Below, piece after piece: positions 24,801 to 63,800 of a stretch of DNA of 64,000 bases. The DNA is from Apostichopus japonicus. Lineage: Eukaryota > Echinodermata > Holothuroidea > Aspidochirotida > Stichopodidae. The translations under genes were made by a program, and so were the position numbers. The number at the start of each line of letters is the position of its first letter. Position 1 is the first letter of the stretch. The stretch spans positions 730,001-794,000 of the forward strand of contig NC_092563.1 in NCBI RefSeq assembly GCF_037975245.1. Reading direction: 5' to 3'. Under the pieces are notes generated by a model, which searched no databases, was not told the DNA's origin, and saw only the letters and a list, made by a program, of their open reading frames with translations.

Positions 24801-27800
24801 GAGGCCCAGTGCAGTGTACCTTGTAAGTCATCATCAAATCTCTCTATGTCAGTAAGGTTAAGTATGAATGTTAAAGTCTTTGAATGTCAAAGAGATTGTA
24901 ACGAAATCCAGAATAATGGAACACTTAAACTTATAAAAAGTCAAAGGATTTTCTTGCGTCCATGGATATGTCACTGTTTGTCTTAGTACAATGTTCATCC
25001 ATGGATATGTCACTGTTTGACTTGGTACAATGTACGTCCATGGATATGTCAACGTTTGTCTTGGTACAATGTTCATCCATGGATATGTCAACGTTTGTCT
25101 TGGTACAATGTACGTCCATTTACATGTCAACGTTTGTCTTGGTACAATGTTCATCCATGGATATGTCAACGTTTGTCTTGGTACAATGTTCATCCATGGA
25201 TATGTCAACGTTTGTCTTGGTACAATGTACGTCCATTTATATGTCAACGTTTGTCTTGGTACAATGTTCATCCATGGATATGTCAACGTTTGTCTTGGTA
25301 CAATGTACGTCCATGGAAATGTCACTGTTTGCCTTGGTACAATGTTGATCTATGGATACGTCACTGTTTGTCTTGGTACAATGTGCATCCATGGACATGT
25401 CAACGTTTGACTTGGTACAATGTACGTCTATGGATACACTGTTTGACTTGGTACAATGTGCATCCATGGATATGTCACTGTTTGTCTTGGTACAATGTTC
25501 ATCCATGGATATGTCAACGTTTGTCTTGGTACAATGTACGTCCATGGATATGTCAACGTTTGTCTTGGTACAATGTTCATCCATGGATATATCAACGTTT
25601 GTCTTGGTACAATGTGCATCCATGGACATGTCAACGTTTGACTTGGTACAATGTACGTCTATGGATACACTGTTTGACTTGGTACAATGTGCATCCATGG
25701 ATATGTCACTGTTTGTCTTGGTACAATGTTCATCCATGGAAATGTCACTGTTTGTCTTGGTACAATGTTCATCCATTGATATGTCAATGCTTGACTTGGT
25801 ACAATGTACATCCATTGATATGTCAATGCTTGACTTGGTACAATGTACATCCATGGATACATCACTGTTTGTCATGGTACAATGTGCATCCATGGATATG
25901 TCAACGTTTGTCTTGGTACAATGTTCATCCATGGATATGTCAACGTTTGTCTTGGTACAATGTACATCCATGGATACATCACTGTTTGTCATGGTACAAT
26001 GTGCATCCATGGATATGTCACTGTTTGTCTTGGTACAATGTTCATCCATGGATATGTCAACGTTTGTCTTGGTACAATGTACGTCCATGGATATGTCAAC
26101 GTTTGTCTTGGTACAATGGTCATCCATGGATATATCAACGTTTGTCTTGGTACAATGTGCATCCATGGACATGTCAACGTTTGACTTGGTACAATGTACG
26201 TCTATGGATACACTGTTTGACTTGGTACAATGTGCATCCATGGACATGTCACTGTTTGTCTTGGTACAATGTTCATCCATGGAAATGTCACTGTTTGTCT
26301 TGGTACAATGTTCATCCATTGATATGTCAATGCTTGACTTGGTACAATGTACATCCATTGATATGTCAATGCTTGACTTGGTACAATGTACATCCATGGA
26401 TACATCACTGTTTGTCATGGTACAATGTTCATCCATGGATATGTCACTGTTTGTCTTGGTACAATGTACATCCATGGATACATCACTGTTTGTCATGGTA
26501 CAATGTGCATCCATGGATATGTCAACGTTTGTCTTGGTACAATCCACATCCATGGATACGTCACAGTTTCTCTTGGTACATGTGTTCTTCAGAAAACTGT
26601 CATATTTTCATTCTTCCTGCTCTCTAGCTCCAACCCCTCATGAAGGGTCCTGTCCCAACCAACATTTTGCTTGCACATCCTCATCCACCGGGCACATGAC
26701 TTGTTTCCAAGAAATACGGAAATGTGACGGCCACCAGGACTGCGAAAATGGAGACGATGAGGAGAGTTGTGCATCCGTTTGCCATTATCTCCTGGAAGGT
26801 ACAGTCGGTTCATTTTCCTCTCCGAACTATCCGGGGAATTACTACAGTGACCTGGACTGTGAGTGGAGGATTTCGCTAGGGCAAGAGGGCATTGTGCAAC
26901 TGAGGTTTGTTCAATTTGATCTGGAGTCCGGCTTCTACAGAGACTATGTAAAGGTTTTTGAAGACTATATCCAACCATCGACTGGAGCCTACGTCCGGGT
27001 ATGTTGTCAGTTATTCAACTTATCTAACTTACACCTTTTCTTTTTGAATTTGTTTTTCCACAAATACTAGCTGACAGTAGTAAGCTATGCAAGTCAGTAT
27101 GAAAAGAGTCTGTGGCCGTGTTACATTACGGATCAGACTCTGCATTCGCTGTTCAGCATTAAACTTGACTTTAAACCCCCGGGCCTTTGGATTTAGATCC
27201 CCTGCTCAGCATCAGATCCAGCGCATGCAATCACTGTTATTAACACACTACTATTATGTCAAATTATGGGCCTAAATAACAAATATAATTATTAAAGGTC
27301 ACCACTGATCCCAGGTCAACGTAAAACTGTGTTGACAGAATTCATATCCACAGGATCACATCCACCCTCGATCCTGGTCTATATCGCTTGATTCAAATCG
27401 CGGGGTCCGATTCTCGTTTACATTATAAATTAGACACCTAGGGCTGGGCACAACACCATGCTTTGTGGTCTAATGTAAATGAGGCCTGTGACTCTTCAAC
27501 ACAACATGGTCAGATTGTGGGGTATTTCTGAATTATTCCAGTACTCTAGGAAAAGAAATGGCTTGATATAGGCCAGTGTTTATCCAGTCTTCACATGGAT
27601 AGATTTCATTTGATCTACTTTAGGCTTTGTAATCCTGGAGATTAATAAGGAAACGGAACCAAGGTAGCCATCATAGAGTTTATAAACTTGTCTTACTATT
27701 AGGGAAAGTGTTCATATGACAAACGAGAGGCCAGCTAGGATATTTCTTCTTCTTCTTTCCCCCCCGCCCCCCATCTTCTGTATTGATTTCACTGAGTTAA

Positions 27801-33418: not shown

Positions 33419-36400
33419 GAACATCTCCATCACATAAATCAAAGATAATGGTGAGTGTGTTTCCTGTATTGGTGCCTTATTACATGTTTCAAACTGATGT
33501 TAGTTCTTACTGCGTCTGTCTTAACATTGGTATAACTTGCAGTGGAGTTTAGGATTATAGTTTTTCATTTGGTCACAATCTACACAATCTTCCCAGTATA
33601 ACTCAAAATTAGATCAAAATTAATCTAACTTACCTAACCTTGTAGACTTTTCCACCAAATGAAGCTAACATGGAGAAAATAATATTGTCGCGCAAACACT
33701 TTCCATTTGGATGAAGTCATTGGGATTTTAATATGAAATAGCATCCAGCTTTTAGAAGATTTGGTCATAATTTAAGGCCTGATTTTAAGTAGATTGTTAC
33801 TTTCTTCCAAATTATTACTTGATTTTGTAAAGCATTTTCATAAAGTCAAAGAATTATATGCATCTTCTGCCCAAATGACAAAGAGTGCTTTATCAACCTT
33901 TAAACTATTGCCAGCTCAGTATTAAAGCTGATAGCAATACCTTATGTCAGGAATGGTCACATGACACCATATCATCCAATCAGAGCCAAGAATGTAATAT
34001 CATAGATCGAGCATGTCATTTAGAAGTAGCTCATGAAGAAACACTGTCATAGTTGTTTTGTGTTATTTTATCAAAAGTCCTGAATGGAATGCCCCTCCAC
34101 CCCCCTTCTTTTTGGGTGGGCTTTGTGGTTGACACATTTGCTTAGGTCACAAATATTATTTAGTGGAAGGTAGTTACAGAATAGTTTATTTTGGTACAGG
34201 CACTTGTGACTAAATGTTATTACATGAATTTTTACGTAGCCATAAAACTTAATGAAAATGTGTCTGAAGCATCGAGAAAAGCCTAAACTCAATGAAATTG
34301 TTGTTGATTTATGTTTCTTGATGACGCATCAGGTTCTGATCATTAAGAAAGTTTCCTTCCTGTACCTCAAATAGTTGAACATTTTTCAAAGTGGGCCTAT
34401 CAGCCAAGCCATTTTTCTGACTTAATCATTTATATGAGATGACACATTTACAAAACAAAATGTTTGAAAAACTAGAGTCGTAACTAGCCACCTTATTTTA
34501 AGTTTAAGTCTAGTCATCGTCAGTGATTTTACCATGGTAGAGTTGTTTGCAACGTTGTGGGTGTTGAAAAAGACACCTTTGTGGGGTAACATTTTGAAAA
34601 AAACACAAAAGACCTCAACTCTTTATAATGAAGAAATTGGTTATTGGTTGCTCTGAATTCTTTAAATGTTGTCTCTGTTATGCTCAGTGTGTGTTAATGT
34701 GCGTGTGTGGCGTGTGTGTGTGGTCTGGTGTACAATCCATTAACAAAGAAAGAGACGTGTTTTACATTCAGACTGAGGACCCCATTGCTTTAGCCAATTT
34801 TTCTATTTTCAAATCCACATACCCTTCCTGCAAAAATATTCCTTAATAATAGAATTCTACTAAGGACGAGGTGATTCTTTGCAAATGATGTCTAATTACT
34901 TGGCATTGATTTGTCATGAGTCAGAATACTAATCAAGTACATGCATACTCGCACATAACATGAGTAATGTTTTAAGCTGGTCACATATTTTCCAGACCCT
35001 CATATATAATTGTATTTCCTTTCAGTACTTTTATCCAACATCCAATCTGCACGCTGTGACATACCCATCACTTTATGTCTGCAATCCTCACCCCTCCCTG
35101 TCTCTCTCCCCTTACCCTTTCACCACTTTGTTCCTGCAGATTAAAGCAGTTAAAAGATGATGCTTATTAAATATATCCTTTGCTTTCATTAAATTTCGGT
35201 AGAGTTTCTTACATTGGGGACTTCCTTGAAATTTGGAAACTATTGAAATGTTAATTTATTCCCCCTTTTTTATTTGGCGTCTGTTTCTTTTGTTTGTTAT
35301 TTTTGTTTTAAACTCATGTCTATTCATATATTTTTGATTACATGTCTGTCATTAGAAAAGGAGTGATTCATATTTATACAGAATTGATGATGTAATTAGG
35401 TTTAACGACAGTTCTATTCTTTTGATCAGTTTTATTTTCATATTTGTTCAGCATTTTTTTCCCCCTGTTCTATCGGTATTTGGTTGCAGAAGCTTTCTAT
35501 ACAAACTTTTTAAAGAAATTCATTTTAGGTGTTTGTAGATATATCCAATGGTGACAAAGAGATGTTACAATTTTTACAATTTTATGGATAATTTGAAAAT
35601 ATAATTATGCGGATGATTTATATAACATTTGTTCTTGTTATTAGTTTCAATGATGTGAAACTTAATGTTTGCTATCATGAAAGCATTTGTGTATGAGTCT
35701 GGGATGCCTTACTTGTAACATAATTTCTCATAATCATAATCCCTACTTTGTATACAGATGCCCTAAGCCAAGGTTAAAGAGCCCATTGTTTTAGTGAAGG
35801 TCAAAGGTAATTTGAGGTCAACAGAATATGAAAACTTTAGAAACATGATATCTCTTGAAGATGAAGAGTTGTATTGATTTCATGGTTGCATGTGGTTGCC
35901 CCATATTGAGTAGGTGAAGGCCATTGTTTTGTTGTGTAAATGTCAAAGATCATTTTAAGTCAAGGAGGTCAAAATGATTAAATATTGTATGAAACACAAT
36001 ATGTCAAGAATGCGAAGAAAACCCTTTTTCATCAAAACATGACCCTAATCATATTGCTATGTGGAGCTTCATCATCGAGAGGAATTCAGTACTTCTAGAA
36101 AGGCAATTTGTCATTCCCTATTTCATTTTTCTTTCTGGTAAATTCAGTTACAGCGCCCATTGACATGATTTTCACCAACCCTTAAAGGCATTGAAGACTC
36201 GCCCCAAACCATGTGCAGTCATCTGAAAAAGTTAACTTTCTGTCGCTTGCAAGTGACATTTTGTTCGTGTCGCTACAAAATGCAGGCAGTAATGGAACGT
36301 GATACCTTAATTGTTATCTTTAGCTGGACCTGAGATGTCCATCTCGAGTCTTCACACCCACACTTTGAAGTCAGCCTTATCACCCCTTGCTATCACCTCC

Positions 36401-36929: not shown

Positions 36930-37049
36930 ATGGCAGAGACAGTAACGAAGACATATACTCTCGAAGAAGTTAGCGAACACAGAACTACCGGCTCTTCTTG
37001 GCTTGTCATTCATGATAGTGTTTATGATGTTACTAAATTCTTGGATGAG
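36930..37049 (+). CDS. CYB5: Cytochrome b5 exon 1
   Basis: Encodes residues 1-40, [17 protein letters not shown] to VTKFLDE, ending in phase 0 at GTACGT. An A at -3 and G at +4 support this start. Confidence 0.95.
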
Positions 37050-40000
37050 GTACGTATGATCAAAACGAACACAGGCCTATGCTTCTGAGCTTCAGCTCCT
37101 AGCTAAGTTATACGTTAAACTGAATAAAGGATAGGTTTCTCGGTAATCTATATTCTAACGTTACTTCAAATACTGCCTAACGTTACTTTCTTGTTCAGGG
37201 TCTATCACTAGACTGTAGGCCTATCCGCACCGTCCATTTCTCGAACTGAAAATAAGAATCTCAAATACATATTCATATGGTTGACTAGTTGAGACTAGTG
37301 GAACAGTTCAACACTAGCCTAGTAGTTGTTATTCAGAGTTTCACGTGTTGAGCAATCATCAGGCAACTGGTATGTAGTGCTTGTAGTTGTGGTAGTCTCA
37401 ACTAGTCCCAACCTATATTCCGCTCTGTAAACTGGACATACCTGTAGAGCACTCTGCGCCAAGATAGTCGCAAACCAACCAAATTCATCTAGGCCTATAT
37501 ATATATATTATATAGCAATTGACGCACTTAAGAATTTGATCAACAGTATAGAGGAAAATCCAAATCACTCAACTGAATGTGTTTTTCAATTTCACATGTG
37601 TAGTTCGTCAGAAGTGTAATGATCTCAAAATATTTATTGTTCTGTGCCTACACAACACAAATAATCTGCCATTTCAAGTTCTTTCATACCTCAAAATTGA
37701 CAGATTTGTCGATAAGCTTACTGTAAGTATACATCCATTGACTCTGAATGTTGTTTGCTATGCTCTGAGCCTCTATAAGCTCAGACAGGTCAGGTCCCAG
37801 AGAGCAGTGGTATCATGTTGAGGTAATTTTGGTTATTTTTAGGGAGTAAGATTACCAAATGCAAAATATACGTGCAAAACTGGGCGGAGGGTGTTAATAG
37901 CTTAAAAAAACACAATTTGATCAGCTCAAACCTGAAATGGATTCAAACTCAATGAAATATGTAACTGCTTTGCTGCAAAAAGTTTAGGTTGCCTGCTGTA
38001 TCATTGCTAGTAATATTTGAAGGTGCGTCAATTATGAAGCCTTTATACATATATAAATATACTATAACAATATATATAAAGGCATATGCATATATTATAA
38101 AGAAAATCCATGTGTATTCCAAAAGTATCATAAGATACAATTCCTAATTTTGACAAACAAGAGAAATAGGCCTCAAACAGTAACGAATCATACAACAATA
38201 GTAACAGGAAGAAGATGTTAGTGCCCACCCCTCCTCCCCAAAAAAATTAGAAGAGAAAATGCCAGCACACAGTTTCATGCATATCAACTTGTTGGGGAAC
38301 GTGATCGTTCATTTAAAAAGGGGTTAGGACTAGCGTTATAGAATAGGCACATATTTTCTCACTAAATTTTTAATGGGATACCACAAATGAGAATTGTACA
38401 AGTGGTTACTGTCTGTGAGTTGTGAAAACGATTAGAACTTACAATATGAGTTGATTATAATTTTGATACTTTATATCAATGCATGACTTAAAGTGAGATT
38501 TGACCTTCATTCTGGCTGTTTAAAAATATCAGTATCAAGCCGATATCGGGATTGGAATATCGGATATTGTATGCATGTATGTAGTATGTATAATATAATA
38601 TATAATAATAATAAAGGAACTCGCGAAGACGCCTCATTGGCTATAATCAAAGCTGCAAGCTGACCGAAGTCAGTCTCTTAGATTCATATTTTTAACGTCC
38701 ATGATTATGAATTGTCAACAACTCTGTGACTGGGCGACATACATTACATTACATCTTGGACTGACTCGAACCTCATAACTCGAAATCAAAACTGAGGCCA
38801 AAGAAATGGGTTTTTAGAACTGATTGATAAATTATCGCAAGTAAAAAGAAGTGGCTTTGTTGTGGCAAAGAAATGTTCTATATCGGTTGCCGTTATCGGC
38901 AATAGGGATAAATTTTACCGATATGCCGCCGATACTGCAGACATTGGCCGATATCGATATCGCAAACGATTATCGGCGCGACACAAGGTCACCTTCTCCG
39001 TCAGGTCAGATCCTTTTCTACCAACCTATAGTAGGCAGTTGTTTCAGATCATGAAGATACATATTGCAAAGATGGAGAATGTTTCTCTAATCTGCTCCCC
39101 TCCCCTCCCCCATCTCTCTCAATTCCATCTTCAAGAAAGAAAATAGAAAATAATTCAGAATGCATGTACTGTAGGGAACAAAGCAGCATTGTATGCGTTT
39201 AAGAAATGTTGTCAATATAATTTTACCATGAAAGAACCAATTGGCTTATTACTTTCAAACTTGTACAAAAGTCTTTTCTCAGTCATTTTTTCCAGCAGTT
39301 GTACAATCTGAGTAGTATACAGATAGACCAAAAGGGAATGTAGGTGTGTAGGGTTCACACAGTCTATGCGGTTGCTGTAGCAAACTCCTACAACTTTACA
39401 ACTTAGTGTATTATTTAAGAAGCAGGTATAGTGTGACTTACTGTACATGTGTAGACCTGCATTACTCTCCTACCATCAACATTAACTGATTCTCTTCCTG
39501 TACCAAACCACTTCAAATTTATCTAAAGCTCCAAACTTGTTTCGAGAGTTACAGTATGCCTGCTAAAATAAGGTATTATATGGGTATCCACTACTACCCA
39601 CAACCCAGCAAATCTTTGAACAATTACGATCATTGTCTCTGTGTCACTAATTATAGACTAATTATAACTTAGTGTATTATTTAAGAAGGAGGTACAGTGT
39701 GACATACATGTGTAGACCTGCATTACTCTCTTACCATCAACATTAACTGATTCTCTTCTTGTACCAAACCACTTCAAATTAATCTAAAGCTCCAAACTTG
39801 TTTCGAGAGTTACAGTATGCCTGCTAAAATAAGGTATTATATGGGTATCCACTACTACCCACAACCCAGCAAATCTTTGAACAATTATGATCATTGTCTC
39901 TGTTGCACTAATTATAGACTAATTATAACTTAGTGTATTATTTAAGAAGGAGGTACAGTGTGACATACATGTGTAGACCTGCATTACTGTCTTACCATCA

Positions 40001-43000
40001 ACATTTACTGATTCTCTTCTTGTACCAAACCACTTCAAATTAATCTAAAGCTCCAAACTTGTTTCGAGAGTTACAGTATGCCTGCTAAAATAAGGTATTA
40101 TATGGGTATCCACTACTATCCACAACCCAGCAAATCTTGAACAATTGTCTCTGTTGCACTAATCAAAGAGTAGACCTATGAGTAATAATAAAGCAACTGA
40201 CCTTCAGTCTCCTTGCCCCTCCCTGTCAATGACTTTAGTGGACAATTCTTTGTGTGACAAAACTTGCAACATCACCATTTGAAATCATGTTCATCTTAAT
40301 AGCTTGCCTAATGTATATCACAAAGAAAAGAATGAAGTCTGACAACAGCATTGTTGTTGACAGAAATTGTGAACAAAAAGTGCAGAAAATCAAATGTTTC
40401 AATAATATCAAATTAAAAAAATCAAATAAAAATAGGAACACATTTAAGTGTAAGAGGTCTGAAACATCAAACATATATATTAATTGTTTCACATATCTAG
40501 AAAATAACAGAACTGTTTGAAATTAGCACTAACTTAGTATTGGATAATATTTCACTGTACTGCACATAGCTTGCAGTACTTACGGTAAAATGTTTGGAGG
40601 CAGATACAGTATGTAGAACAAGAGGAATAACTTGATTAATTTCATTTGAGATCTATTGCATTCAGGTGTATATTACGTAGAGTTCTCCAAGCTATCATGT
40701 ATGTAAGATGTACAATACAACTGGTATTGCATTAGAGTGTACAGTACGTAGAGCTGTGACGCGATGAACATATCAAACTTGCCCCAAGTCATTTTGCAGT
40801 ATGATGTGATAGACACATTGAACTTGCCGCAAGTCTTTTTGCACATCATTCTACTGTACTTGTGATAACAAAAAATAATAATGACAATGTGGCAATGAAG
40901 TCATTTCAAAACTATAATGTTAGTCACTTTTGAGTTTAATGATAAACTGGTTGTTTTTTCTTTCAGCATCCCGGTGGAGAGGAGGTTATGCTTGAACAAG
41001 CAGGTAAGGATTGTCAGTAATTTAGAAATACTTGAAATATTTTTAAATAGTTACATTTTTAATAGAAAATGTATATTTTGTTTTATGTGTGTTCCTTGCT
41101 TTGGAAATATGACTTTTTCATATGATAACATGAGAATACAGTTTAACATTTAATTATCCTTTACTTTTGCGATTAAATCACAAACGAGCTCAGGATTCAT
41201 TCACCTGTGATGTCCTTGGTATATGTTGTCTGAGCAGCCTGGGCGTATAGTACATTAACCTACAGTGTACAGGTGTGCTCTTGTTAGACAGTAGTGTTAG
41301 ACAGTACTGTATGTATTACAGTATAAACCAGGATCCAGAGTACAAACTCAGGGTTGAAGTCCATGGGATGATTTATCTACAGTACATGGTGTTAATTGCT
41401 TTAAGTACCAACCCTGGTATCAGTGGTGAACATGACATGACATAATTATCAATCACAGCTCATGTTTAATCATTAAAATTACATGAATCAAAATCGAAGG
41501 AAATAATTGTTGCTACTGTTAAAGTCTGTAGAGATAAGAAACAGAGAAATGAATGAATAGATATACTGTACATAACAGTGAGTTTAGTTTGACCTGTTTG
41601 TATCTTGAAAAGTATAAAGTCTAAGGAACTGACAAATTTGATGAAGGAAATAAGGCTAAATATCAAACTTCAAACTAATGGATGGAGTTAAAAGAGTATA
41701 TAACTGATAGTGCATGCATGCCTGTACAGTGTGGTGCTGAGACTTAGGAAAGGTGTGACCTTTGAACCCCATTCTTGTTAAATTTTATATCTGTGTGTAC
41801 AGAAGTAACTGAGGTATATATACTAGTAAGTAGGGGGTGGGAGGGGGGAGGGGGGACAAGAAGTACTTGATGTTTCAGAAGGAGATAAAATTCTTTAATA
41901 CATGGTTGGCAGTGGAACTATCAATATTATAGTACTGTAGCATACCCATGGCTATTGAACTCATTGGACAACTTTTTTTTGGGGGGGGGGGGGCATGGGG
42001 AGCAAAAAGTAAAGCTTAGGTTGAGATGCAGACAGCAATAGAAGCATAAAAATGTCATTGATAACAAGCTCAGCTTGTTTTTTTTTATGAAGGCTAGCAA
42101 TGTGCTGGGCTTTTGTGATGTAATGGTGAGCAAGCATGCCGCTATTCAGCTACAATTTACACTGTCTTGGCTCTTAAAGTGGGGTACGCTTCACTGAGTA
42201 CAACCAAGCACTGACAGTCTCACACTATTTGGAGGTCAGCTTTAAAGTGCCTATGTCACTCAATGATCTTTCACCTTGATATTAACTCACTTTATCTGAA
42301 TGTCTTCACAACTACTAGACTTAGGGGTACAAGCACTTTACATGGTGTTTTGATTGTTATCTTCAAGAAAAATTTGCAAAGTTCTACGTAGAAATTGTCA
42401 ACCAACACAATGGAATTTACAACACTGTGATAATTCTGACTATTGCTTTGCTGGATGTGTTCTGGGAGTTTTCTTTATCAAAGTTTTCATTACTTAACCA
42501 TGCTGGATGGTTTTAATGAATTTCTGAGACTATCCTCTGAACATAGGATGACTTTTGACTTGACTGTGCTATGCATGATATCTTTTTGGAAATTGGAATG
42601 ATGTAGACACCCCCCCCTGCCCCCACCCCTGTTTTATGAGTGAAACTATGTAGACTGCAGGCTGTCATATCCACTGCTATATTTAAAGCAGACAGGTGAA
42701 ATTATGGTTTCCATGATGAGAGGACACTGCAAGTGAATAGTGGTCCCTGGTCCACAGGCTTGTCATTGGCACCACACCAATTGATTATTACCTCGGACCA
42801 GTTTTCATTTATTTCCATCTTATTTACACTCCTTTGTTGTAAAGAAAAATTGGTTCATATACTTAATTTTACTAAAATATCACTTAGCAACAAAGTTGAA
42901 CATATCATAAAGCGTTGCTGTTTCCACTTGTTTGGGAAAGACAAACAAAGCTTGTGTCAGAGAATATTAAGAACCTCCTGTTGTATTTTTAAAGGAGCAG

Positions 43001-46000
43001 GTTTCTTTGTGTTCACCGTGCTCATTAACCTGTCTGTATTCTGTGCGTGTTTTTGTCCCTTCTGTTATTGTTACTTGTCATTTAGCCTTTGAAGAAGATT
43101 CTGCTAGGATCGAAACGTCAGGCCAACTTACTTTTACACATTCTCTTACACAGGCTCTCTAGTGGATAAGCAGTTTGCTAACAGTTTTATTTTATTTTGT
43201 ATTTTTAAAGGGGTGGGCGGGTTAACAAGTTATGGTTAATCAGATGTCATTAAGAAGGTTATTAAAAGATTTGTGGTAGAGACTGCAAACTGTGAATATT
43301 CCCTCAATTTCAAAATTAATTCCTTTATGTTCTTAATGTTATTTGAATGTGACATACAGATACAGTGCTACTGATATTATAGTTACAGAGTTTCAACACG
43401 TACTAATTGGGTATAATTAACTCCTCTCTATCAACATCACTATATTTGCCTTAATTCCTTCCATGTAAATGTCACTAAGTAATCATTTGTGTTTTTCTTT
43501 TCATTTCTCGCCTCTAGGTGGTAATGCTTCAGAATCGTTTGAAGACGTAGGTCATTCGCAAGATGCCAGGGAGCTGATGAAGGACTACCTTATCGGAGAA
43601 TTAGATGAAGTAAGTGTCTACTCAGCTAAGATCATTTTGAGACGGTCATTTCATTTTAAAGCAAACTTTTAACCATATTTTCACCAACGTTTTCCAACTG
43701 AGGGGACATTTTTTCCCCTGCATTTTACTGAAAGGTCAGTGTTAGTGTAAGACCAAGTCTTCCATGCTATGGGAACACCTTGAAGCAGCTTTCAGCGATG
43801 TCAATTCCTTAGCTAGAGTAATCAAGTTTTATTTAATTAAAGTTAAAACAAAGATGGACAAAAGTGATTGAAAATTTATGCATGGCAGCAGATGATGAAT
43901 TAGTTACCAATTAAGGCTTCATTAAGTATTCCATTGTAAACATGAACAAACCAATCCCTAACTCTACACTCTTGTTTGGTAACTACTTCTGGTAGTTAAC
44001 AATCACACAATTATGGCAATGTACTTTTTTGCCAAAGTTTTGAACCATTGGACAAGTTTTATAGTTCAAATGAAATCAGATTTCCAATTAACTTATGATT
44101 CCTCGGTTTGATATGATTAAGTTTTATCTTGTCCAATCTTACATGTTTTGTCATTGATGAATAGGACCCAAAACTTGCGACTAATATTATAAATGTTAAT
44201 CATAAAATGTTGTTTTTGAAATAATCAACATTTGGAAAATATATACAAAATGCTGGTACTGTAGTGAGATAGTCAAAGAAATACATACTGTATGGGATTT
44301 TATTAGGGCAGCTGTTTGGAGTCATGAGTTCTGTCAGGTAAACCTTAGATACTGTCAGATACCAACCATGTTACCCAAACTAACATTTGCTTTTGTTTCA
44401 AATATGCAAGAACAATTGTAAACTTGCCAAAAAAAATCTGATTTTGTTAAATGTTACTATGAAAGGTTGGGTTTTGGCTATGAATATTGGGAATCAAATA
44501 GAAGTTTTAAACTCAGGTAAAGGATCAGCTGGTGTATTAAAAGCTCAAGAGATTGTCTTAGTTTGTTTTGTTGCTATTACAGTATATTAAGTAACACTTG
44601 GCAGGTGTAGTGAAATTTACTGACTTAATGCAAAAAGACTTCTTTTTAATCACAAGAACAGTTCGGCTCATACAAATCTAGAACTACCCCCTTTTAATAC
44701 TGTCAAGTAATGCAATAATCCAGCACTACTACAGTTATATATATATAATGAACTGAATTGTCATTGCTTCACCCATGGACGTGTGCAAATGTCATTTTAA
44801 CATAGATGTTTGTATCTTTTACAAACCACACAGGATTACCGTATCCATGTTTGGTACTTGGTAGGGATTCATATTTTACTTGTCTGTTATTTGATGCATG
44901 GTAAGATACTGAACTAACATCAAATATTATTATTTTTTTTTATGTTCCCCAGAAAGATAAAGTGAAATCAGCTAAAGTAAAGGTAAATATGACGCTCATT
45001 AAGGTTTCTCCGTTTCGCTTAGATTGTGTGTAAATGATTTTTAAATGATTTTGTATTTGACATTTTCGCTCTGGTTTTGTGCAGCATGGGTGGAACATCA
45101 TGTTGAAATTTTATTTGAAAGGTTTTGCTTATGCTGTATCTTAATTTGCAAAAGAAAGGCAAATATGAAAGGGGAACGCATTTTCTTGTTATACAGAAGA
45201 AGAGGGATCACTTTAGTGACACTGTTAACAGGAGGGGGCAGGGGGAGGAGGGGGAGGGTAATCCTAACGGAGGTAATAATAAAGTCTATTAACTCTTGTA
45301 GCTGAACATGTATGGCAGTGTTAGGTTGTCGGTATCTACTGTTGCTGTGGTAACCTTTCATATCCATAACAACCAACTGATATTGTGTTTTGCTCTCATT
45401 TGTTTCAGAGAGCAGAAGAACTACCATCATCGTCAAATGACGGCGGGTGAGGAAACATTCATTTACTAATTACATCACATTTAAGTTTTCTACTGTTTGT
45501 TAGGTCATACACCACCCATGACCTTCACTACAGCACCTAACTCTAACATGGGAATCAAACCATGCTCATTTTATGTTTCATCCTTTAAACCACATGCATC
45601 ACATTTATCCCCATTTTTTCTGCAATTAAAAGTCTTCATGCATTAATGAATTAAGCTGCATCTTGGTATTGCAACAATAATTAGACTGTTATGGTAGAAT
45701 TAGGTTGTTGGTTTAACATATGACTGTTCACGTTGTTTATTTATAAAGTAAACAAATACGTGCTCCATCATTGTAGATGATATGATTTCATAACATGACT
45801 AAAACACACAAAAGCCAAAGTATGTATGAGAGTGCCTGGAACACACAGTATAATTCTGGTTGTGTTGTATGAAGTTTGAATTGTCCAATTGTTGATGCAA
45901 TAGAAATCAAATTATGACATATGAAGGAACATAAGCAATGTTTACAACATGGTCGTGTCTACGTCATCTTTCAAATTGTCCAATTACGAAAGCAAAAAGC

Positions 46001-49000
46001 AAAACTTGAGTTCTGAATCGAAAGTTATGTAACTCTGCAGTATCCAACCACTGTAACAATTCATTGTTTTACTTCCAATTAGGCAGGAAGGACACATATG
46101 GTACTGTACCTACTACCATAGAAAGACAAACCAATATATATATCTGTGGGTATTAGATAATGCACAGAACACTTGAATGCTAAACACGATACTGAAACCC
46201 ATTATCCCACACCCCTTCAAACCCAGCGTGCCTCCTTAAGTAAGTGCTTCGGTCAGGATTAGATATATTCCACCACTGAAGTTTGAATACCAGAGGACTG
46301 AACATACCCTACCATCCAAGATATGCTGGTAGTTGTGTCTTGCACAACAGGGTGAAGGTTTGAGATTGCGAGAAAAACTGTATATGATACGGAGGTCGTG
46401 AAGTTAACCAAATCCTAGGTATTATAGGGATGCGGTGAACCCAATCCTAGGTATGATAGGGAGGTTGTGAACCCAATCCTAGGTATGATATGGAGGTCGT
46501 GAACCCAATCCTAGGTATGATAGGGAGGTTGTGAACCCAATCCTAGGTATGATAGGGAGGTTGTGAACCCAATCCTAGGTATGATAGGGAGGTTGTGAAC
46601 CCAATCCTAGGTATGATATGGAGGTCGTGAACCCAATCCTAGGTATGATAGGGAGGTTGTGAACCCAATCCTAGGTATGATAGGGAGGTTGTGAACCCAA
46701 TCCTAGGTATGATAGGGAGGTTGTGAACCCAATCCTAGGTATGATATGGAGGTCGTGAACCCAATCCTAGGTATGATAGGGAGGTTGTGAACCCAATCCT
46801 AGGTATGATAGGGAGGTTGTGAACCCAATCCTAGGTATGATAGGGTGGTCGTGAACCCAATCCTAGGTATGATAGGGAGGTTGTGAACCCAATCCTAGGT
46901 ATGATAGGGTGGTCGTGAACCCAATCCTAGGTATGATAGGGTGGTCGTGAACCCAATCCTAGGTATGATAGGGTGGTCGTGAACCCAATCCTAGGTATGA
47001 TAGGGAGGTCGTGAACCCAATCCTAGGTATGATAGGGTGGTCGTGAACCCAATCCTAGGTATGATAGGGTGGTCGTGAACCCAATCCTAGGTATGATAGG
47101 GTGGTCGTGAACCCAATCCTAGGTATGATAGGGAGGTCGTGAACCCAATCCTAGGTATGATAGGGAGGTTGTGAACCCAATCCTAGGTATGATAGGGAGG
47201 TTGTGAACCCAATCCTAGGTATGATAGGGAGGTTGTGAACCCAATCCTAGGTATGATAGGGAGGTTGTGAACCCAATCCTAGGTATGATAGGGAGGTCGT
47301 GAACCCAATCCTAGGTATGATAGGGAGGTTGTGAACCCAATCCTAGGTATGATAGGGAGGTTGTGAACCCAATCCTAGGTATGATAGGGTGGTCGTGAAC
47401 CCAATCGTAGGTATGATAGGGAGGTCGTGAACCCAATCCTAGGTATGATAGGGAGGTCGTGAACCCAATCCTAGGTATGATAGCGTGGTCCTGAACCCAA
47501 TCCTAGGTATGATAGGGAGGTTGTGAACCCAATCCTAGGTATGATAGGGAGGTTGTGAACCCAATCCTAGGTATGATAGGGAGGTCGTGAACCCAATCCT
47601 AGGTATGATAGGGTGGTCGTGAACCCAATCCTAGGTATGATAGGGAGGTCGTGAACCCAATCCTAGGTATGATAGGGTGGTCGTGAACCCAATCCTAGGT
47701 ATGATAGGGTGGTCGTGAACCCAATCGTAGGTATGATAGGTTGGTCGTGAACCCAATCCTAGGTATGATATGGAGGTTGTGAACCCAATCCTAGGTATGA
47801 TAGGGAGGTTGTGAACCCAATCCTAGGTATGATAGGGAGGTTGTGAACCCAATCCTAGGTATGATAGGGAGGTTGTGAACCCAATCCTAGGTATGATAGG
47901 GAGGTTGTGAACCCAATCCTAGGTATGATAGGGAGGTTGTGAACCCAATCCTAGGTATGATAGGGAGGTCCTGAACCCAATCCTAGGTATGATAGGGAGG
48001 TCCTGAACCCAATCCTAGGTATGATAGGGTGGTCGTGAACCCAATCCTAGGTATGATAGGGAGGTCCTGAACCCAATCCTAGGTATGATAGGGAGGTCCT
48101 GAACCCAATCCTAGGTATGATAGGGTGGTCGTGAACCCAATCCTAGGTATGATAGGGAGGTCCTGAACCCAATCCTAGGTATGATAGGGAGGTTGTGAAC
48201 CCAATCCTAGGTATGATAGGGAGGTCCTGAACCCAATCCTTTAGTTGGATGAGCGCATTAGTGCAAATAATATGTGATGGACAAACACCGATTGCATCAG
48301 TAACTGCTTTTTGAAATTCAAATAAAGTAACAACAATTCCAAAGTTTCATGTCTTCTGCAATGGAATGAGCTATTAATATCGGAGAGAATCAAATCAAAG
48401 TAATTACTAAATTGTAGATGAACCCTCACTTGGTATATCTAACATGCTGTCTTAGTTTACTAGAGGGCAGCCTCACTTTGAATACTAATCCTTGAGTCAA
48501 TGCAGAAAAGGTGACTTGAAACAGCAGGTTGTATTTCAAACCAAAATCCACCTTCCCCTAGATCCAATTAAGGAACAGATTTTAAGTTTCCAGTTAGTAA
48601 CACTTTTTTAATGTTTAATGTTTTTCTTTTTTATTCTTTAAGTTATTTTTCTTAATTTAATTAATTATTTTATTCTTTACTTTTTACTTTAATTAGCCTT
48701 AAAGATTTCATACCCTTGCAAATTACATGATGGGTAGGTGTGTTAGGTTCAGAAGAGGGATTCCTATTTGCTCTGGAAAGTTACAAAGATTGTAAGATTC
48801 CTATAACCATGCAGTCCAACTAGTGTAAAAAATACATTGCAACACACTACCAGTAACTTTATCTTAATTTATGAAGATAAATGTGTAGTGTGGGTTGGAA
48901 TAATTGGATTCTTTCTAAATATGGCATGTCTGAATAATTGGTACACTTTTATTAAAAATTGTTTTAGTAGAGCAAGGCTTTTTCCAAAGACCAAAGCAAA

Positions 49001-52000
49001 AAAAGATGAAAATTAGGCATTTTAACGGTATTTCTAGTAGTGGTGCTGTTCACAGCGTAAAATATACTTGTGCATTGATATCTATTGTGCTTTTTGTAAA
49101 TCAATGAGGCTTCAATAAAAATTGAAGAAAAGTGTGATCCTTGCCATAAATTGAATATTTCAAATGGTGTGATCCTGTCAGACTTTTTCCTTTGAACACT
49201 TAAAGAATCACCTAAATTAAGGGAGATATATTAGATTGGGGGGGGGGAGGAGGTGAAGGCCCAATTTAATGAGAAGTAATTTGCGTTCAGATATGCTACA
49301 ATAGGCTCACTTCAACACCTTTAAGTTACATCTTCATCATGCTGTCAAAATTTTTGTGAACTTTTCTTGTTAGCATTTTCCCCTGATGACCCTCGTACTA
49401 ACATTGCTTCCACTGTTCCTCTGTCCGTCCGTCCGTCCATCCGTCCATGTGCATCAGATTAAATGTTGTGGCAATTATGTCGTGATGAATCAAATGTGGT
49501 CTGGGAGTGATGTTTTTCTTCTTTTTGTTTACTTACAGTCAAAAGACTTCAAGCAAATCATGTTGCATCATGTAGGATGGGCTTCATTTTGACAGCATTT
49601 TTAGGGTATGGCTTACTGTAACTGCTTTCGTTTCTTAAGGATGGTTGTCAGTCACTGTAATAGCTATGTTTGAAATCTATCTAGGTTAGTACTTCCTAGG
49701 GAAATAGACTTGACAACCTACCAGCCTATCCTATGCTCCAACTACAGTAATGTTTCTCTCCGGCCCATGTAAAGAATGAATTGAAAAATCTGTGTGATTG
49801 GATCCAAAATTTTGAGTATGGTGTTTGCCTCTGATATGTCTTTAGTGTGACATTATTAAAAGGAAAGGGAGTTTTATAAGTTTGTGTGTGTGTGTGAGGG
49901 GGAGAGGAAGTGGGTGGGGGGAGGAAGTGGGGGGGTTGAGGCAGGTGTGGAGGAGGATGAGGAAGAATAGGCACTGCTAAATAATATAGAGGCTAAATTT
50001 GTCAAACTGGTGAGCCTCCAAGATATGACAAAACAGCTCACCTGAGCATGTTGTAAAGTATGGCAGTGAATATCTCTGTACGTGTAACGCAAGTTGACAA
50101 CATTAGCCTGGCACCCAAATAAATAAAGGTTGACTGATATTATCTTAAAAGGTATGACCATCAAAGCATTGAAAACAGTCAGTGTGGTGTTGAGCGGGGG
50201 GGGGGGAATAGTTATAGATCCCTTTCAAGTTAGTATTTTCTTTAATTTTGATTTCATGTTTTTGTCCATTTTGTTTTGTAGTGCTCGTTCCTCTATGTCG
50301 CACTAATTGCACCAAGTACATAATGTAGGACTGCTTCTAGGATCCATTTTATTTTATTCATGGTCACCACCATGGGCATCACGGTCACCTTTTTTCAAGA
50401 AAGGCAGCAAGACTATTCTATAACTAGACTGATTTAAAATATATATCCTCTGTCTAGGCCTGCCTAGGACTATCCCATTGATGTACCATTTTCAAATGCT
50501 CCTAGGCCAAACAATCCCCTGACATACGTTCCTCTAACATCCCCATCCCATGTGCCTCTTTTCACCCTCCTCCTTTGACCTCGATCCTAATGTCACACCC
50601 TGTTTAACATTGTCTTTGGAAGCCTGTAATTCATCTCTGGCAATTCCATCCAACACACATACTACCACAATAATATCATTCAGCAGTTTAATACCACTGC
50701 AATGTTGATTCTGGCTTCTGCCCTCATCAATCTATGAATTTTCAGTGTTGGTTTCTGCTCTCAATACCTATGAATATTCAATGGTGTTCACTCATGAATA
50801 TTCAATAGTAATTGTAATATACTCTATGACACTGCACTCTATGATACTTCACTGTATGGTTTATATGTACAACCATGTTGCATTCAATGCATGTTAGTTC
50901 TGTTTTGCCTCTGCCATTGGTTTTGCATTGTCTGGCAAATCACTACAGAAAAGTGACTGGGAAATTGTAAACAGTCTTATTAAGGAGCACAGAAATTGGT
51001 GGCTAGCGAGGTATTTCTCAGGATTGCCCCAAAAAAAAATTGGTAAAGAAAAAAGATAGTAGAAAACCTGACATTACATGATCAATAATAGTTATGCACA
51101 TGTGTGTATTTATTCAGCATGCATCTGTGAAACTGGACGTATTTGTGTATCTTTGATATAATTACAAGTGTTCAAAGGGATGGTGACAGTAGAGGGATAT
51201 AGATAAGTTTGGGAGGGGAGGTTAGAGATGGAGGGGGGGGAGGGGGCAAGAGATAGGTTGAAGAGAGAGACTTCCCTCCGTGGTTATGATAGGGAGCATC
51301 AATTTTCATAGTGGTGCATGTTTCCCAGAAGTAGCAGTCCTTCTGTGATTGCTTTATCAGTTATCAGTAACCTGCACATCATATCAATGTTGTTTGAGAT
51401 TGCTTGCATTAATGGTTGATACATAACATACTGTATGGTCAATAGTTTGATAGTTGCATTCTGTAATTTGTATAAATTTGTAGTAACTTCTCCTTTGTGT
51501 ATAGTGTGACATTTATATTTATTGAAGTTTCTTAAGATATAAAGGCGGTTGTTGGACTTGCCAGAAATGTATTTGAATTAGAAGGCTATGGTGATTACTT
51601 ATAGCTGCATACTGCATTGAAAGGATGTACATATGTATTATGTAATGCCTGATGAGAAAACACCTTCAAACTGATTAGTTTTCCTTTGGAGATAAGATGT
51701 AGTCCATGTGTACATGTATTTTCCTGCCATGCAATGTTCCAGTAATGGTAATAATGATAGAAATGGTCCTTTCAATTCTTGTAAATTAGGTTAACTAGAC
51801 TATGATTAGATTCATCTTTGACACAAAGAAAACGAAGAACAAAGGAATTGACCACAAATATCAAGCGACAGACACATTCACAGTGTAATACCCTAATGCA
51901 TTTATAGAAACACAATTTTCTTCAGGATTGAGTTGATGTTATGTTTGAATGAATAATGTGTAAGTGCCTGAATTTTGTTGGAACTTGGTGCAAATATTGC

Positions 52001-52723
52001 ACAAGCATTGTAGATGGCTTCCCTTGTTAATTTATTGAGATGGAAACAGGCAAATGGACAGACAGACAGACGGATATCCTGTCAGTTACACTGAGAGTCA
52101 CACAGACAGACACTCACACATTCACACAGTTAGTCAAATGAACTGACAGTTGTAGAATGATACATACAGCTATTTTGAATTCCATTTATTGTAATTTTGC
52201 TCTTGTAAGCTATTTAGTGTAGGACCATTGAATGATAAATACTTTATGGCGACAGTAAAGATGATTGAAGTCTACAATTAGTGGATTTTGCTGGTAAGAT
52301 ACAACACACACAGACACACACACACACATGTATAAACTGCATTAACAATATTTACATCTCAACTTAAGTTGCTATATATTACACAGACAAATCCAAAACA
52401 TTTTTTTCTATGGGTAGTGCACTCATTACAATAAAAGATGTTCAATACATAAAGAAAATTCATGAAATATTCCCCTCCCCCAGAGATATATAGCTAGACC
52501 AAGGCTGATTTGCATATAAAAATTGGGCTGAAGTTACTCATGGAGTAAGCTATTCATCAAGTATGTAATATAATGCCAACACTTGAAACAATTTCTATTT
52601 TTGATTTCTTTCTTGTTTTTATTCCCTTTCTTTCACAGTGCTTTTTGGAACTGGATTGTACCAGGAATTATCGCGCTAGGTGTCGCCTTAGGTTATCGTT
52701 ACTTCTTTGCAACATCCAACTGA
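36930..52723 (+). CDS. CYB5: Cytochrome b5, tail-anchored microsomal/mitochondrial type, 6 coding exons
   Basis: Coding exons: 36930-37049, 40967-41003, 43518-43609, 44953-44982, 45409-45446 and 52639-52723. All junctions match in phase and yield 133 residues, close to the usual length of about 134. Residues 9-85 form the heme-binding b5 fold: [50 protein letters not shown]. The axial heme ligands are His41 (HPGG) and His65 (VGHS), 24 residues apart as in the family. A charged linker ([23 protein letters not shown]) leads to a C-terminal anchor ([20 protein letters not shown]) with short tail FATSN. It carries electrons to desaturases, cytochrome P450 and other acceptors from the cytosolic face of the ER or outer mitochondrial membrane. 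Which membrane is not decidable here. Start context GAAAATGGCA is good. AATAAA signals lie at 53102 and 53225. Confidence 0.96.
37279..37413. mobile_element. Short inverted-repeat element in cytochrome b5 intron 1
   Basis: Left arm GGTTGACTAGTTGAGACTA and right arm TAGTCTCAACTAGTCCCAAC are inverse copies apart from a two-base insertion. They enclose about 95 bp, consistent with a tiny MITE or relic hairpin. Confidence 0.5.
38525..38980. mobile_element. ATCGG/CGATAT-rich repeat split by a SINE
   Basis: Words such as AAGCCGATATCGGGATT (38538) and TTACCGATATGCCG, GGCCGATATCGATATCG (38915-38960) recur on both sides of the minus-strand SINE at 38616-38800. Dense YATCGG motifs of this kind are characteristic of hAT-type non-autonomous elements in many animals; that assignment is tentative. 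Confidence 0.4.
38616..38800 (-). mobile_element. tRNA-derived SINE, family A copy 2
   Basis: On the minus strand it shows AGGTTCGAGTCAGTCC (box B with acceptor end), then AAGATGTAATG, CAGAGTTGTTGACAATTC, ATAATCATGGA, GAATCTAAGAGACT and TCTTCGCGAGTTCC, the same order as the copy at 15765-15966. The box A side is more decayed. Confidence 0.75.
39401..40160. repeat. Three tandem copies of a roughly 265-bp unit in cytochrome b5 intron 1
   Basis: ACTTAGTGTATTATTTAAGA starts copies at 39401, 39667 and 39928 (spacings 266 and 261). Copies are about 95 percent alike by eye and include TCGAGAGTTACAGTATGCC and GGGTATCCACTACTA. There is no open frame of interest. Confidence 0.93.
40740..40850. repeat. 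Short tandem duplication, about 58 bp
   Basis: AAACTTGCCCCAAGTCATTTTGCA and GAACTTGCCGCAAGTC-TTTTTGCA recur with the preceding GATGAACATATC/GATAGACACATT context. Confidence 0.5.
40967..41003 (+). CDS. CYB5: Cytochrome b5 exon 2, heme ligand His41
   Basis: A 37-bp exon encoding [12 protein letters not shown] plus the first base of the next Gly codon. It contains the first axial heme ligand. The acceptor is TTTTTTCTTTCAG; the donor is GTAAGG. Confidence 0.96.
43070..43160 (+). mobile_element. Possible Penelope-like element end with a hammerhead-like fold
   Basis: The segment AGCCTTTGAAGAAGATTCTG CTAGGATC GAAACGTCAGGCC can form a 5-bp stem (GATTC with GGATC) and an outer GCC/GGC pairing, followed by GAAAC-GTC, as in hammerhead ribozymes. 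The first core strand reads CTTTGAA instead of CTGATGA, so cleavage is not expected. Hammerhead-like ends are known from Penelope-like retroelements. No GIY-YIG or reverse transcriptase coding was recognised beside it. Confidence 0.3.
43518..43609 (+). CDS. CYB5: Cytochrome b5 exon 3, heme ligand His65
   Basis: Encodes [20 protein letters not shown] to YLIGELDE, including the second axial heme ligand in VGHS. The acceptor is TCGCCTCTAG; the GTAAGT donor is in phase 0. Confidence 0.96.
44953..44982 (+). CDS. CYB5: Cytochrome b5 exon 4, 30-bp microexon
   Basis: Encodes [10 protein letters not shown] between a TTTTTTTTATGTTCCCCAG acceptor and a GTAAAT donor, phase 0 on both sides. It could be skipped without changing frame. 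It forms part of the charged linker. Confidence 0.85.
45409..45446 (+). CDS. CYB5: Cytochrome b5 exon 5, linker before the C-terminus
   Basis: Encodes [12 protein letters not shown] and two bases of the next Gly codon. The acceptor is CTCTCATTTGTTTCAG; the donor is GTGAGG, phase 2. If the donor is not used, the frame stops at once (GGC GGG TGA), which would give a soluble 106-residue b5. Confidence 0.88.
46382..48241. repeat. 32-bp minisatellite in cytochrome b5 intron 5
   Basis: About 58 copies of the 32-bp unit CCTAGGTATGATAGGGAGGT + TGTGAACCCAAT. Four variants recur (GGGAGGTTG, GGGTGGTCG, TGGAGGTCG, GGGAGGTCC). Near 46480-46750 one TGGAGGTCG unit alternates with three GGGAGGTTG units, a 128-bp higher-order period. 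Confidence 0.97.
49539..49575 (+). CDS. CYB5: Candidate alternative last exon of cytochrome b5 encoding a CaaX box
   Basis: A strong acceptor (TTCTTCTTTTTGTTTACTTACAG, described by its ends at 49516 and 49538) is followed by T-CAA-AAG-ACT-TCA and on to TAG at 49573-49575. Joined to exon 5 (phase 2) it reads [12 protein letters not shown]-stop, giving a 117-residue b5 without the hydrophobic anchor but ending in Cys-Cys-Ile-Met. This fits the CaaX rule for prenylation, and Met at the last place favours farnesyltransferase. The K/S-rich lead-in resembles small-GTPase tails. Overlapping AATAAA signals at 50118-50127 with GT-rich sequence at 50180-50200 could end the transcript. There is no direct evidence of expression. 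Confidence 0.5.
50118..50127 (+). terminator. Candidate poly(A) signal for the alternative cytochrome b5 transcript
   Basis: Two overlapping AATAAA hexamers (AATAAATAAA), with a GTGTGGTGTTG stretch about 55 bases downstream. These could serve a transcript ending in the 49539 exon. Confidence 0.35.
52639..52723 (+). CDS. CYB5: Cytochrome b5 last exon, membrane anchor
   Basis: After CCTTTCTTTCACAG it completes Gly106 and encodes [20 protein letters not shown] then YFFATSN and TGA. The helix with a central Pro and short polar tail is the standard b5 tail anchor. Confidence 0.95.
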
Positions 52724-60800: not shown

Positions 60801-63800
60801 CTGCATGAGGAATAAAAGTGAAAAAGAAATTTAAGAGGTTAAATATTAATTTTTTAAAAATTTTCTAATCGCATCTACCTTTATGCGTGGACTGATAGCT
60901 GAGATGACCATTTTACTTTCATGACTGAATGTGATAGACTTTAATGTGGAGGCTTCACTGTAACCAACGCACATGAAGTTGCAGCTATCATTGTGGGTAA
61001 ACTGTAACCATTGACAGGAAATTGAGTTTGTATTTCTAGGTAAAGTAGGGTAGTGATCTGTGTAAAGCCACAGTTAATACCAGCTGCTGCCAATCATAGA
61101 TTGATAAAAAAGACAGTCTGGAATTATATAAGAAAACATTGCAATGTCCTTACTTCAGACAAACTTATAAACATCATTGACTGTCCAAACAGAGGTTGAT
61201 TCCCCACTCAGGACATCCTGAGACATGTGGCCGACATACCACAGGATGTCCATCTATGTCTTTACCTGGTAGATGAGTCTTGAGCACAGATTTGTAGTAT
61301 TAGTACAAGTCTAACCTGAGTACTAGTATAAGTGTAAGTTCACTTTAAGTATGAGTACCAATATGAGTACACGTGTACAACACTCTTGAATTTGTTCTTT
61401 TGATTACTGCTGAAAATGTCCCAAGCAAGAAGACGAGTACAGATCCGCAAGTCGGAGGAGGATTACAACAATGCTAGAATAAAAATACAGACTCACTACA
61501 GGTCTGCCAGAGCATGTTACTTTTATAAAAGACAAGAAAGTATTTTACCTTTTGGTTTAGGGCATGTCTGGACTGGTACTCCTCCTTGGCAAGCTCTTCC
61601 TCCATCCAGTCTGGTAAGTCAGGGATAAGGATGGCTATGGCTGCCTTAATAGCCAGGAAGACATGCTGGAGGGAGAAGAGGCAGGGAAAGTAAAGCAACC
61701 ACACCCTGTAAAGATTATATGAATTAAACATGACAAGTTTCAGGAAACTTGTGAGGGCAAACTTTTTATGAAACATCTTTAATCTTGTTATTAAAAGACA
61801 GCTTTTTTTGCTCACTCTCAACAACTTTTGGCAAAGTTTGTGATATGTTGTTTATCAATGACAGAATGAGCACACCTGATTTGTAATTTCTCTCAGCACT
61901 TTTTGACAAAAGAAGGCTTGATATACCATAGAATGTCATTCAAGTAAATCACACAGACATGGTTTCAAATGAGCCACTGCATGGCTTCCTAACCTGCAAT
62001 ATTGCAGTATTATGCAGGATTTACAGGTTTTCAATGAAGTTTAGGTTTTAGCATTTAATAAAGAGCACTTGATGGAACTTGATAAAAAGCTCAAAGCAAG
62101 AAAATAAATCACACACAATTTGACTAGGTCATGAATTAATTCAAACTCAATTTGGAAATTTGGAAATGATCATGGAGTGCACAGCAGTGATCCTAACAGG
62201 ATTTATACTACTACTACTACTACACCTGTCAATAATACTTGGCTTATTAATGCTTGCCGTGCTAGACAAAGGGAGGTACTTTACCTCTCTTTCAACAAAA
62301 GGTTGAGTGGATTTAATGATGAGATGTACTTCACATTTTAAGCAGAGGTACAGGGAATTGTACATAAAAGTTCAATCTCCAATGTTGTAATTATATAAGT
62401 CATGGTCCATACCTCTACAGCCACAAATAGTAAAATAAACTTTGCTGTACTGAGATGGGATACTAGTTCCTGGACCTCAGGTGACATGGCCAGTAAAGCA
62501 ACATTGGTCAAGACAGCGATGATGCCCATTATTTCAAATGTCACCTACAAATGAGAATGGTATATGGAATGCAAATTATTATTATTATCCACAAAAAAAA
62601 AAAATTTAAAAAAATCACCAAATTCATGTGTGAGCATCAGAGTGAACTATGCCGATAGGAATCACACTAATGCATTTTGATTTCATGTAATACATATATA
62701 TCAATCCATATGTAGTCATGTAAATACCACACTAATTAAATTTATTTATTCTCAATGGTTTCCTTAGAAGGGGGACTTAAGGCACACCAGGTTCATTTTG
62801 ATATGTTAATAGATTGTTAAAAACACTGCTAGCAGTTCAGGTGGTATTTCTGTACCACTTTTTTAATTTTTAAGAAATTACCCTTTAACCAGCTGAGGTT
62901 GATTAATTAGAGTGGCTGGACTATGTAATCTAAGCAACAGAGCATTCTGTCAGTTCCGTAAATGCAACACCAAACTCAATCTGGAAAACAAGACATGCTA
63001 GCCTCAAAGAAACATCTATTCAGTACATTACAAGTATGTCAAAAACAAAACGGTGTTGGATGTCATACAATGGTGCTCTGTTGTTCACATGAAGTTAAGG
63101 GAACATGTTTTGGGTGAGTTACTAGAATTGATAAAACAATGGATTAATTAACATTTACATCAACACTGAGGAGTAAACATAAATATAGCAGTAGAGGAAC
63201 ATTCCAGATGAAAAGCATATTTTAAACGTCTATGATCTTGAATTTGTTTTTTTTAAAAGCTACAGTATTGATACAAGCTCTCTAAATTGTTCTTTTTCTT
63301 GAACACTACACTCGAGTTAATGTCATCATTTAACGTTGAATATGTAGTTTCAAATTAGTCAAATATATTTTGGACCGTACCACCATGTGAGTAACTGACG
63401 GTTATGGCTACAACCTCTGGCATAAGATGACTTCACAATGCCTGACTGAATGAAGAAGACCCAAACATGTCTAGACTGTTGTTTGTACTCCTGGCACCTG
63501 CATACTGAACAACTGATGAATGCACACGGAAAGACAGTCTTTGTTTTAACGACATTTGTTTGTTGAGGTCACTCGCAACAAGTTGTGTCCATGAACTGCA
63601 CACAGCAGCACCTTTACCACCTACTGGATCCAATGTGACTTTAAAACTGGCTAAATATCGATCAGTTGTAGTCGGAAGGAACAACTCACTCCCCGGGTCA
63701 CCCATGATTATATTAATATTTCTCTATTGGTTCCACATTCAGTCGGGTAGGGTGCAAACCGCTTTGCAATTACCTTCACTTCTTCTTTTTCTTTTATTCT

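Follow-up and report, generated by a model that had tools for sequence, protein, structure and literature searches.

Cytochrome b5 is a textbook example of a tail-anchored protein, and the family is defined by two axial histidines, one in an HPGG motif and the other further along the chain. In vertebrates, alternative splicing of one gene, CYB5A, yields both tail-anchored and anchorless forms, and the alternative form ends early, is soluble and has no CaaX box. No description of this soluble/anchored splicing was found among the matches listed in a search of the open-licence PMC literature. The sea cucumber b5 gene described here would resemble CYB5A in giving anchored and anchorless forms, and would differ from it in that the anchorless form carries a CaaX box instead of being soluble.

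Splicing that determines a C-terminal lipidation box has been described for two other proteins. In CDC42, splicing of the last two exons picks the box, CCIF in the brain form and CVLL in the ubiquitous form, and the sections of the source that deal with the brain form report that a fraction of it carries a prenyl group and can skip the trimming and methylation steps (PMC9868626). This is the same kind of choice as the one proposed for b5; however, both CDC42 forms are lipidated GTPases, whereas b5 is a heme protein in which a lipid would take the place of a transmembrane tail anchor. In OAS1, splicing gives (p46) or removes (p42) a CaaX box (CTIL) and thereby sets the location of the enzyme. 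As far as the OAS1 account extends, p42 is unprenylated, there is no exchange with a tail anchor, and CTIL is predicted to be geranylgeranylated (PMC7612834), unlike the b5 case. PRL-3 shares with the b5 candidate a CCaX box with a terminal Met (CCVM). It is farnesylated, and palmitoylation of its second Cys has been proposed, although not every CCaX protein carries both lipids; the portion of this source that was available does not present the PRL-3 terminus as something that splicing exchanges for an anchor (PMC5095905). CYB5R3, the partner enzyme of b5, is itself lipid-anchored, with an N-terminal myristate on the reductase rather than a C-terminal prenyl group on b5. The sources for this name b5 only in the titles of references on b5 reductase myristoylation, at least in the text accessible (PMC13372824, PMC12057185), and a further paper, in its accessible part, concerns b5 reductase and not b5 (PMC6037860). 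No report of a prenylated cytochrome b5 was found among the matches listed in searches of the open-licence PMC literature, although one may have been published elsewhere.

We analysed a window of 64,000 nucleotides (C3:730001-794000) from the sea cucumber Apostichopus japonicus, a widely farmed animal. A cytochrome b5 gene of six exons spans 36930-52723 on the + strand of this window, and its exons were joined by script. The last intron contains a candidate alternative last exon. The features of the gene are as follows.

36930..37049, + strand: b5 exon 1 with the start codon (script joining; donor GAG/gtacgt)
40967..41003, + strand: b5 exon 2, which holds HPGG, the heme-ligand motif that includes His41 (script joining, acceptor scoring)
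43518..43609, + strand: b5 exon 3, which holds His65, the other heme-ligand histidine (script joining, acceptor scoring)
44953..44982, + strand: b5 exon 4, linker of 10 residues (script joining, acceptor scoring)
45409..45446, + strand: b5 exon 5, linker of 13 residues, with the donor CGG/gtgagg at 45447 (script joining)
49513..49538, + strand: alternative acceptor, a polypyrimidine tract and AG (C or T at 21 of the 24 bases preceding the AG; 9.55 bits)
49539..49575, + strand: candidate alternative last exon, coding part, with the end of a Gly codon, 11 residues and a stop (script joining, acceptor scoring)
50118..50127, + strand: overlapping pair of poly(A) signals, AATAAATAAA (doubled AATAAA), 543 bases past the candidate stop
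52639..52723, + strand: constitutive last exon with the tail anchor, comprising the end of a Gly codon, 27 residues and a stop (script joining; 2m33 alignment)

The main product is a tail-anchored b5 of 133 aa. Residues 6-130 of this protein, anchor included, align to the 134-aa b5 chain 2m33 (E 3.2e-40), and exon 52639-52723 matches the C-terminal stretch of that chain, indicating that the main form has the C-terminal hydrophobic anchor. Both His41, in the HPGG motif, and His65 align to His in 2m33, and we take these two to be the axial heme-binding histidines of this b5. The complete Cyt-b5 heme domain is also present when exon 5 is joined to the candidate exon, since the joined 117-aa product matches PF00173 over profile positions 1-74 of 74 with 93.8 bits (cut-off 23.7, E 6.5e-27).

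Exon 5 ends in ...GGC GG, and a T opens both alternative last exons, so that the same GGT (Gly) codon is completed in either case. The first-pass annotation had placed an acceptor at 49538, an in-phase junction 45446-49539 and this shared Gly codon in the gene, and script joining agreed with it to the base. It likewise reproduced the three product lengths given there, 133, 117 and 106 aa. When exon 5 is spliced to 49539, the product ends in CCIM (residues 114-117). The 106-aa product arises when the exon 5 donor at 45447 is left unspliced and translation reads through into an immediate in-frame TGA. The proposal of a soluble form of this length is the weaker one, however, because the stop follows automatically from a GTGAGG donor at that phase.

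The candidate exon lies 4.1 kb into the last b5 intron (7.2 kb), which is the intron where the anchor would be swapped while the whole heme domain and the linker are kept. Its acceptor, ttctttttgtttacttacag/TCAAAAG, scores 9.55 bits, and the five constitutive acceptors of the gene are all slightly stronger (9.83 to 11.98 bits), as scored with a generic acceptor matrix rather than one trained on echinoderm junctions. Scoring covered the 461 AGs from 45478 to 52660, a range that leaves out the first 30 bases of intron 5 and extends just into the anchor exon. In this set the alternative acceptor ranks second, behind only the acceptor of the anchor exon, and is thus the best non-constitutive one. 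The third-ranked AG, at 52484 (9.06 bits), has only a three-residue frame behind it. On the + strand of the window, 0.43% of AGs score at least as high as the alternative acceptor. With 11 residues and the end of a Gly codon, the exon is too short for its coding bias to be assessed.

A Met at the X position of a CaaX box favours farnesyltransferase, and prenylated tails have linkers that are small and hydrophilic. In the predicted product the stub before CCIM is QKTSSKS, which is of this small, hydrophilic kind, and by analogy the C-terminal CCIM should be acceptable to FTase or GGTase I; for Cys at the a1 position this analogy is with CCIF and CCVM. CCIM is a CCaX box like those of brain CDC42 and PRL-3, so that both farnesylation and palmitoylation would be possible.

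We propose that the sea cucumber b5 gene has two mutually exclusive last exons. Splicing of exon 5 to 52639 would give the ordinary tail-anchored b5, and splicing to 49539 would give a 117-residue b5 that carries, in place of the anchor, a Ser/Lys-rich stub with the ending C114-C-I-M; the latter transcript would probably be cleaved and polyadenylated near 50.14 kb. C114 would be farnesylated by farnesyltransferase, after which the usual trimming and methylation would follow, or C115 would be palmitoylated as in some CCaX proteins. With the heme domain and linker unchanged, the electron carrier would leave its insertion in the ER or the mitochondrial outer membrane for a post-translational and partly reversible attachment to the plasma membrane or endomembranes, where the relocated b5 could serve a lipid-anchored b5 reductase. 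On the evidence of the gene structure, we consider the question of whether exon 49539 is used and gives a prenylated b5 isoform to be close to evenly balanced, tipping slightly towards no. The wider reading is a little less probable: one b5 gene may make tail-anchored and farnesylated (perhaps palmitoylated) forms by choice of the last exon, placing b5 either in the ER/mitochondrial membrane or at the plasma membrane and endosomes, with the farnesylated form pairing with a lipid-anchored b5 reductase in plasma-membrane redox.

The available text on CYB5R3 gives its sites as the plasma membrane, the ER and the mitochondrial outer membrane (PMC6210646). A lipid-anchored b5 would, speculatively, find a partner at the first of these. 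The same text also describes protection of the plasma membrane via coenzyme Q reduction as independent of CYB5A or CYB5B (PMC6210646), which argues against assuming that b5 is needed there. If the proposed isoform is real, the splice choice of a lipid box, already known for GTPases (CDC42) and OAS1, would also be found in an electron carrier, and b5 electron transfer would be placed on membranes that lipidated proteins reach. Such an isoform, with a farnesyl box in the place of the anchor, would, if true, also offer a natural test of the role of the anchor.

The probability that such an exon arises by chance was estimated with a strict farnesyl-type box, defined as C, then not P/D/E/K/R/G/W, then I/L/V/M, then M/S/Q/A/C, at the end of a frame of 6-60 residues; pattern and cut-off were chosen post hoc, with the candidate already seen. 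Intron 5, with its last 25 bases left out, was dinucleotide-shuffled 400 times and scored in the phase of the candidate. The shuffled introns held 1.75 acceptors of at least 9.5 bits each, and a strict CaaX end behind such an acceptor occurred in 1 of the 400 shuffles (0.0025 per intron). A looser box gave 6 matches in 400 shuffles (0.015) and a looser acceptor threshold of 5 bits gave 10 in 400 (0.025). In the window and the four loci examined for a paralogous b5 gene, taking both strands and three phases, 207 combinations reached at least 9.5 bits, and the candidate was the sole strict match. A larger control was drawn from the same genome (294,726 bases in 26 stretches, namely 20 arbitrary 10-kb pieces, the four paralogue loci and the two flanks of the window); this DNA may include true acceptors. 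Strict ends per acceptor-phase combination amounted to 1/759 at 9.5 bits (0.13%), 7/2,796 at 7 bits and 12/6,810 at 5 bits (0.18%), and loose ends at 9.5 bits to 6/759. Acceptors of at least 9.5 bits occurred at 0.43 per kb per strand in the control, from which the expectation of a strict CaaX end for the intron is about 0.004 to 0.006. Genome-wide, chance cases at such rates would number in the hundreds, by our own estimate rather than by computation. Because the pattern was post hoc and hundreds of chance cases are expected, the case for the candidate exon lies in the coincidence of gene, intron and motif and not in the motif alone.

A second, divergent b5 gene is present on the same contig, about 8.2 Mb away (C3:9018485-9034390, covered by loci L006-L008). 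Its exon 1 is 53% identical to that of the b5 gene in the window over 34 residues, and a short hydrophobic exon, VLFMLFTASVLVGWLAYKSFSLY, starting at position 8322 of L008 behind a 13.9-bit acceptor, is likely its tail anchor, judged from the sequence. In the four loci, 38 kb in all and scanned in every phase on both strands, acceptors of at least 5 bits were never followed by a strict CaaX frame of 6-60 residues. The CaaX exon was thus either gained in one gene or lost from the other, and its lack in the paralogue counts modestly against a used isoform. The earlier claim of an alternative CaaX last exon therefore stands in part: the anatomy favours it more than chance alone would and a poly(A) signal pair follows the stop, but the paralogue is without the feature. 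A Cyt-b5 family search of the genome returned 6 places, which are exon 1 in the window, exon 1 of the paralogue and four others. When the b5 protein was compared with these four others, L001 matched with E 8e-10 and L004 only with E 0.82, and L002 and L003 gave no match.

It is a serious possibility, if somewhat short of an even one, that the acceptor at 49538 is a decoy in a 7.2-kb intron and that the short frame behind it just happens to end in CCIM, being rarely or never used and giving no functional protein. Decoys are common, as about 3 acceptors of at least 9.5 bits are expected in this intron from the control rate, and strict ends at the observed rates would recur over all introns; the paralogue without a CaaX exon points the same way. 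Against chance, the expectation for the b5 intron itself is only about 0.0025 (shuffles) to 0.005 (control DNA), and the candidate falls in a gene and an intron where it is meaningful. The exon could instead be real and regulatory, either stop-bearing and poison-like or a terminal exon used at low level, tuning the amount of anchored b5, with CCIM incidental or the product unstable. The candidate exon could also be internal, as strong donors lie downstream of it, one at 49945 (9.3 bits) and one at 50010 (9.9 bits). This would leave the protein unchanged, and in an internal exon 49539-50009 the stop would lie far from the next junction. The poly(A) signal pair, however, is also there. As AATAAA is frequent, with 0.70 copies per kb in intron 5 and 0.84 in the whole window, this pair is weak evidence for a transcript end. 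A purely regulatory exon would moreover leave the farnesyl-type end of the short frame unexplained, and we consider it improbable.

It is highly improbable that the acceptor belongs to something else, such as a repeat or a non-b5 transcript. A large minisatellite (46406-48240) does lie in the same intron, but it ends 1.3 kb upstream of the candidate exon, and Rfam gave no match in the window at gathering score. Positions 49300-50200 (901 bases) found no second copy in a search of the whole genome (35 contigs, 671,581,487 bases), which passes over simple repeats and very common words, and blastn of the same region against 316,735 other bases gave a best E of 0.82, or 0.13 for a 161-base core. 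A known interspersed repeat, used as positive control for that blastn, gave 9 matches in 8 stretches, itself included. The reading preferred here remains that of an alternative last exon encoding a CaaX box.

Two origins of the exon were considered and rejected. It does not look like a piece of a common repeat, as the genome search returned only the region itself and blastn no match with E <0.1. It is also not a recognisable decayed copy of the anchor exon, since the local DNA score of 16 hardly differs from the shuffle mean of 14.2 and was reached in 111 of 500 shuffles. A degenerate-codon pattern of the acceptor, the 11 residues and the stop had 0 matches in bacterial, archaeal and viral contigs, a result that is uninformative on animals. 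A search of viral contigs with the b5 protein gave 10 pattern-matching stretches, none of them coding a relative.

Several repeats were observed around the b5 gene. The minisatellite at 46406-48240, which lies in intron 5 upstream of the candidate exon, repeats a 32-bp unit about 57 times; it could differ in length between individuals and alter the splice distance. An interspersed repeat of about 160 bp (36182-36343) lies upstream of b5 exon 1 and has 8 further matches of 79 to 91% identity, one of them partial, in the 316,735 bases. Another repeat (38615-38771) is matched at two places close to the paralogous b5 gene.

Elsewhere in the window, a frame on the - strand (61474-61824) includes an anoctamin-like exon that matches PF04547 with E 8.7e-5 and 22 bits, under the curated cut-off of 28. 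An open frame of 336 aa at 31853-32863 has a hydrophobic stretch and a Ser/Thr-rich tail and no Pfam match at E 0.01, and may be the cytoplasmic end of the same receptor gene as the repeat-bearing stretch at 25017-26627. In that stretch, long open frames on both strands run over a repeated unit; this is probably an intronic minisatellite, and the gene around it has domains of the LDL-receptor class A and CUB types.
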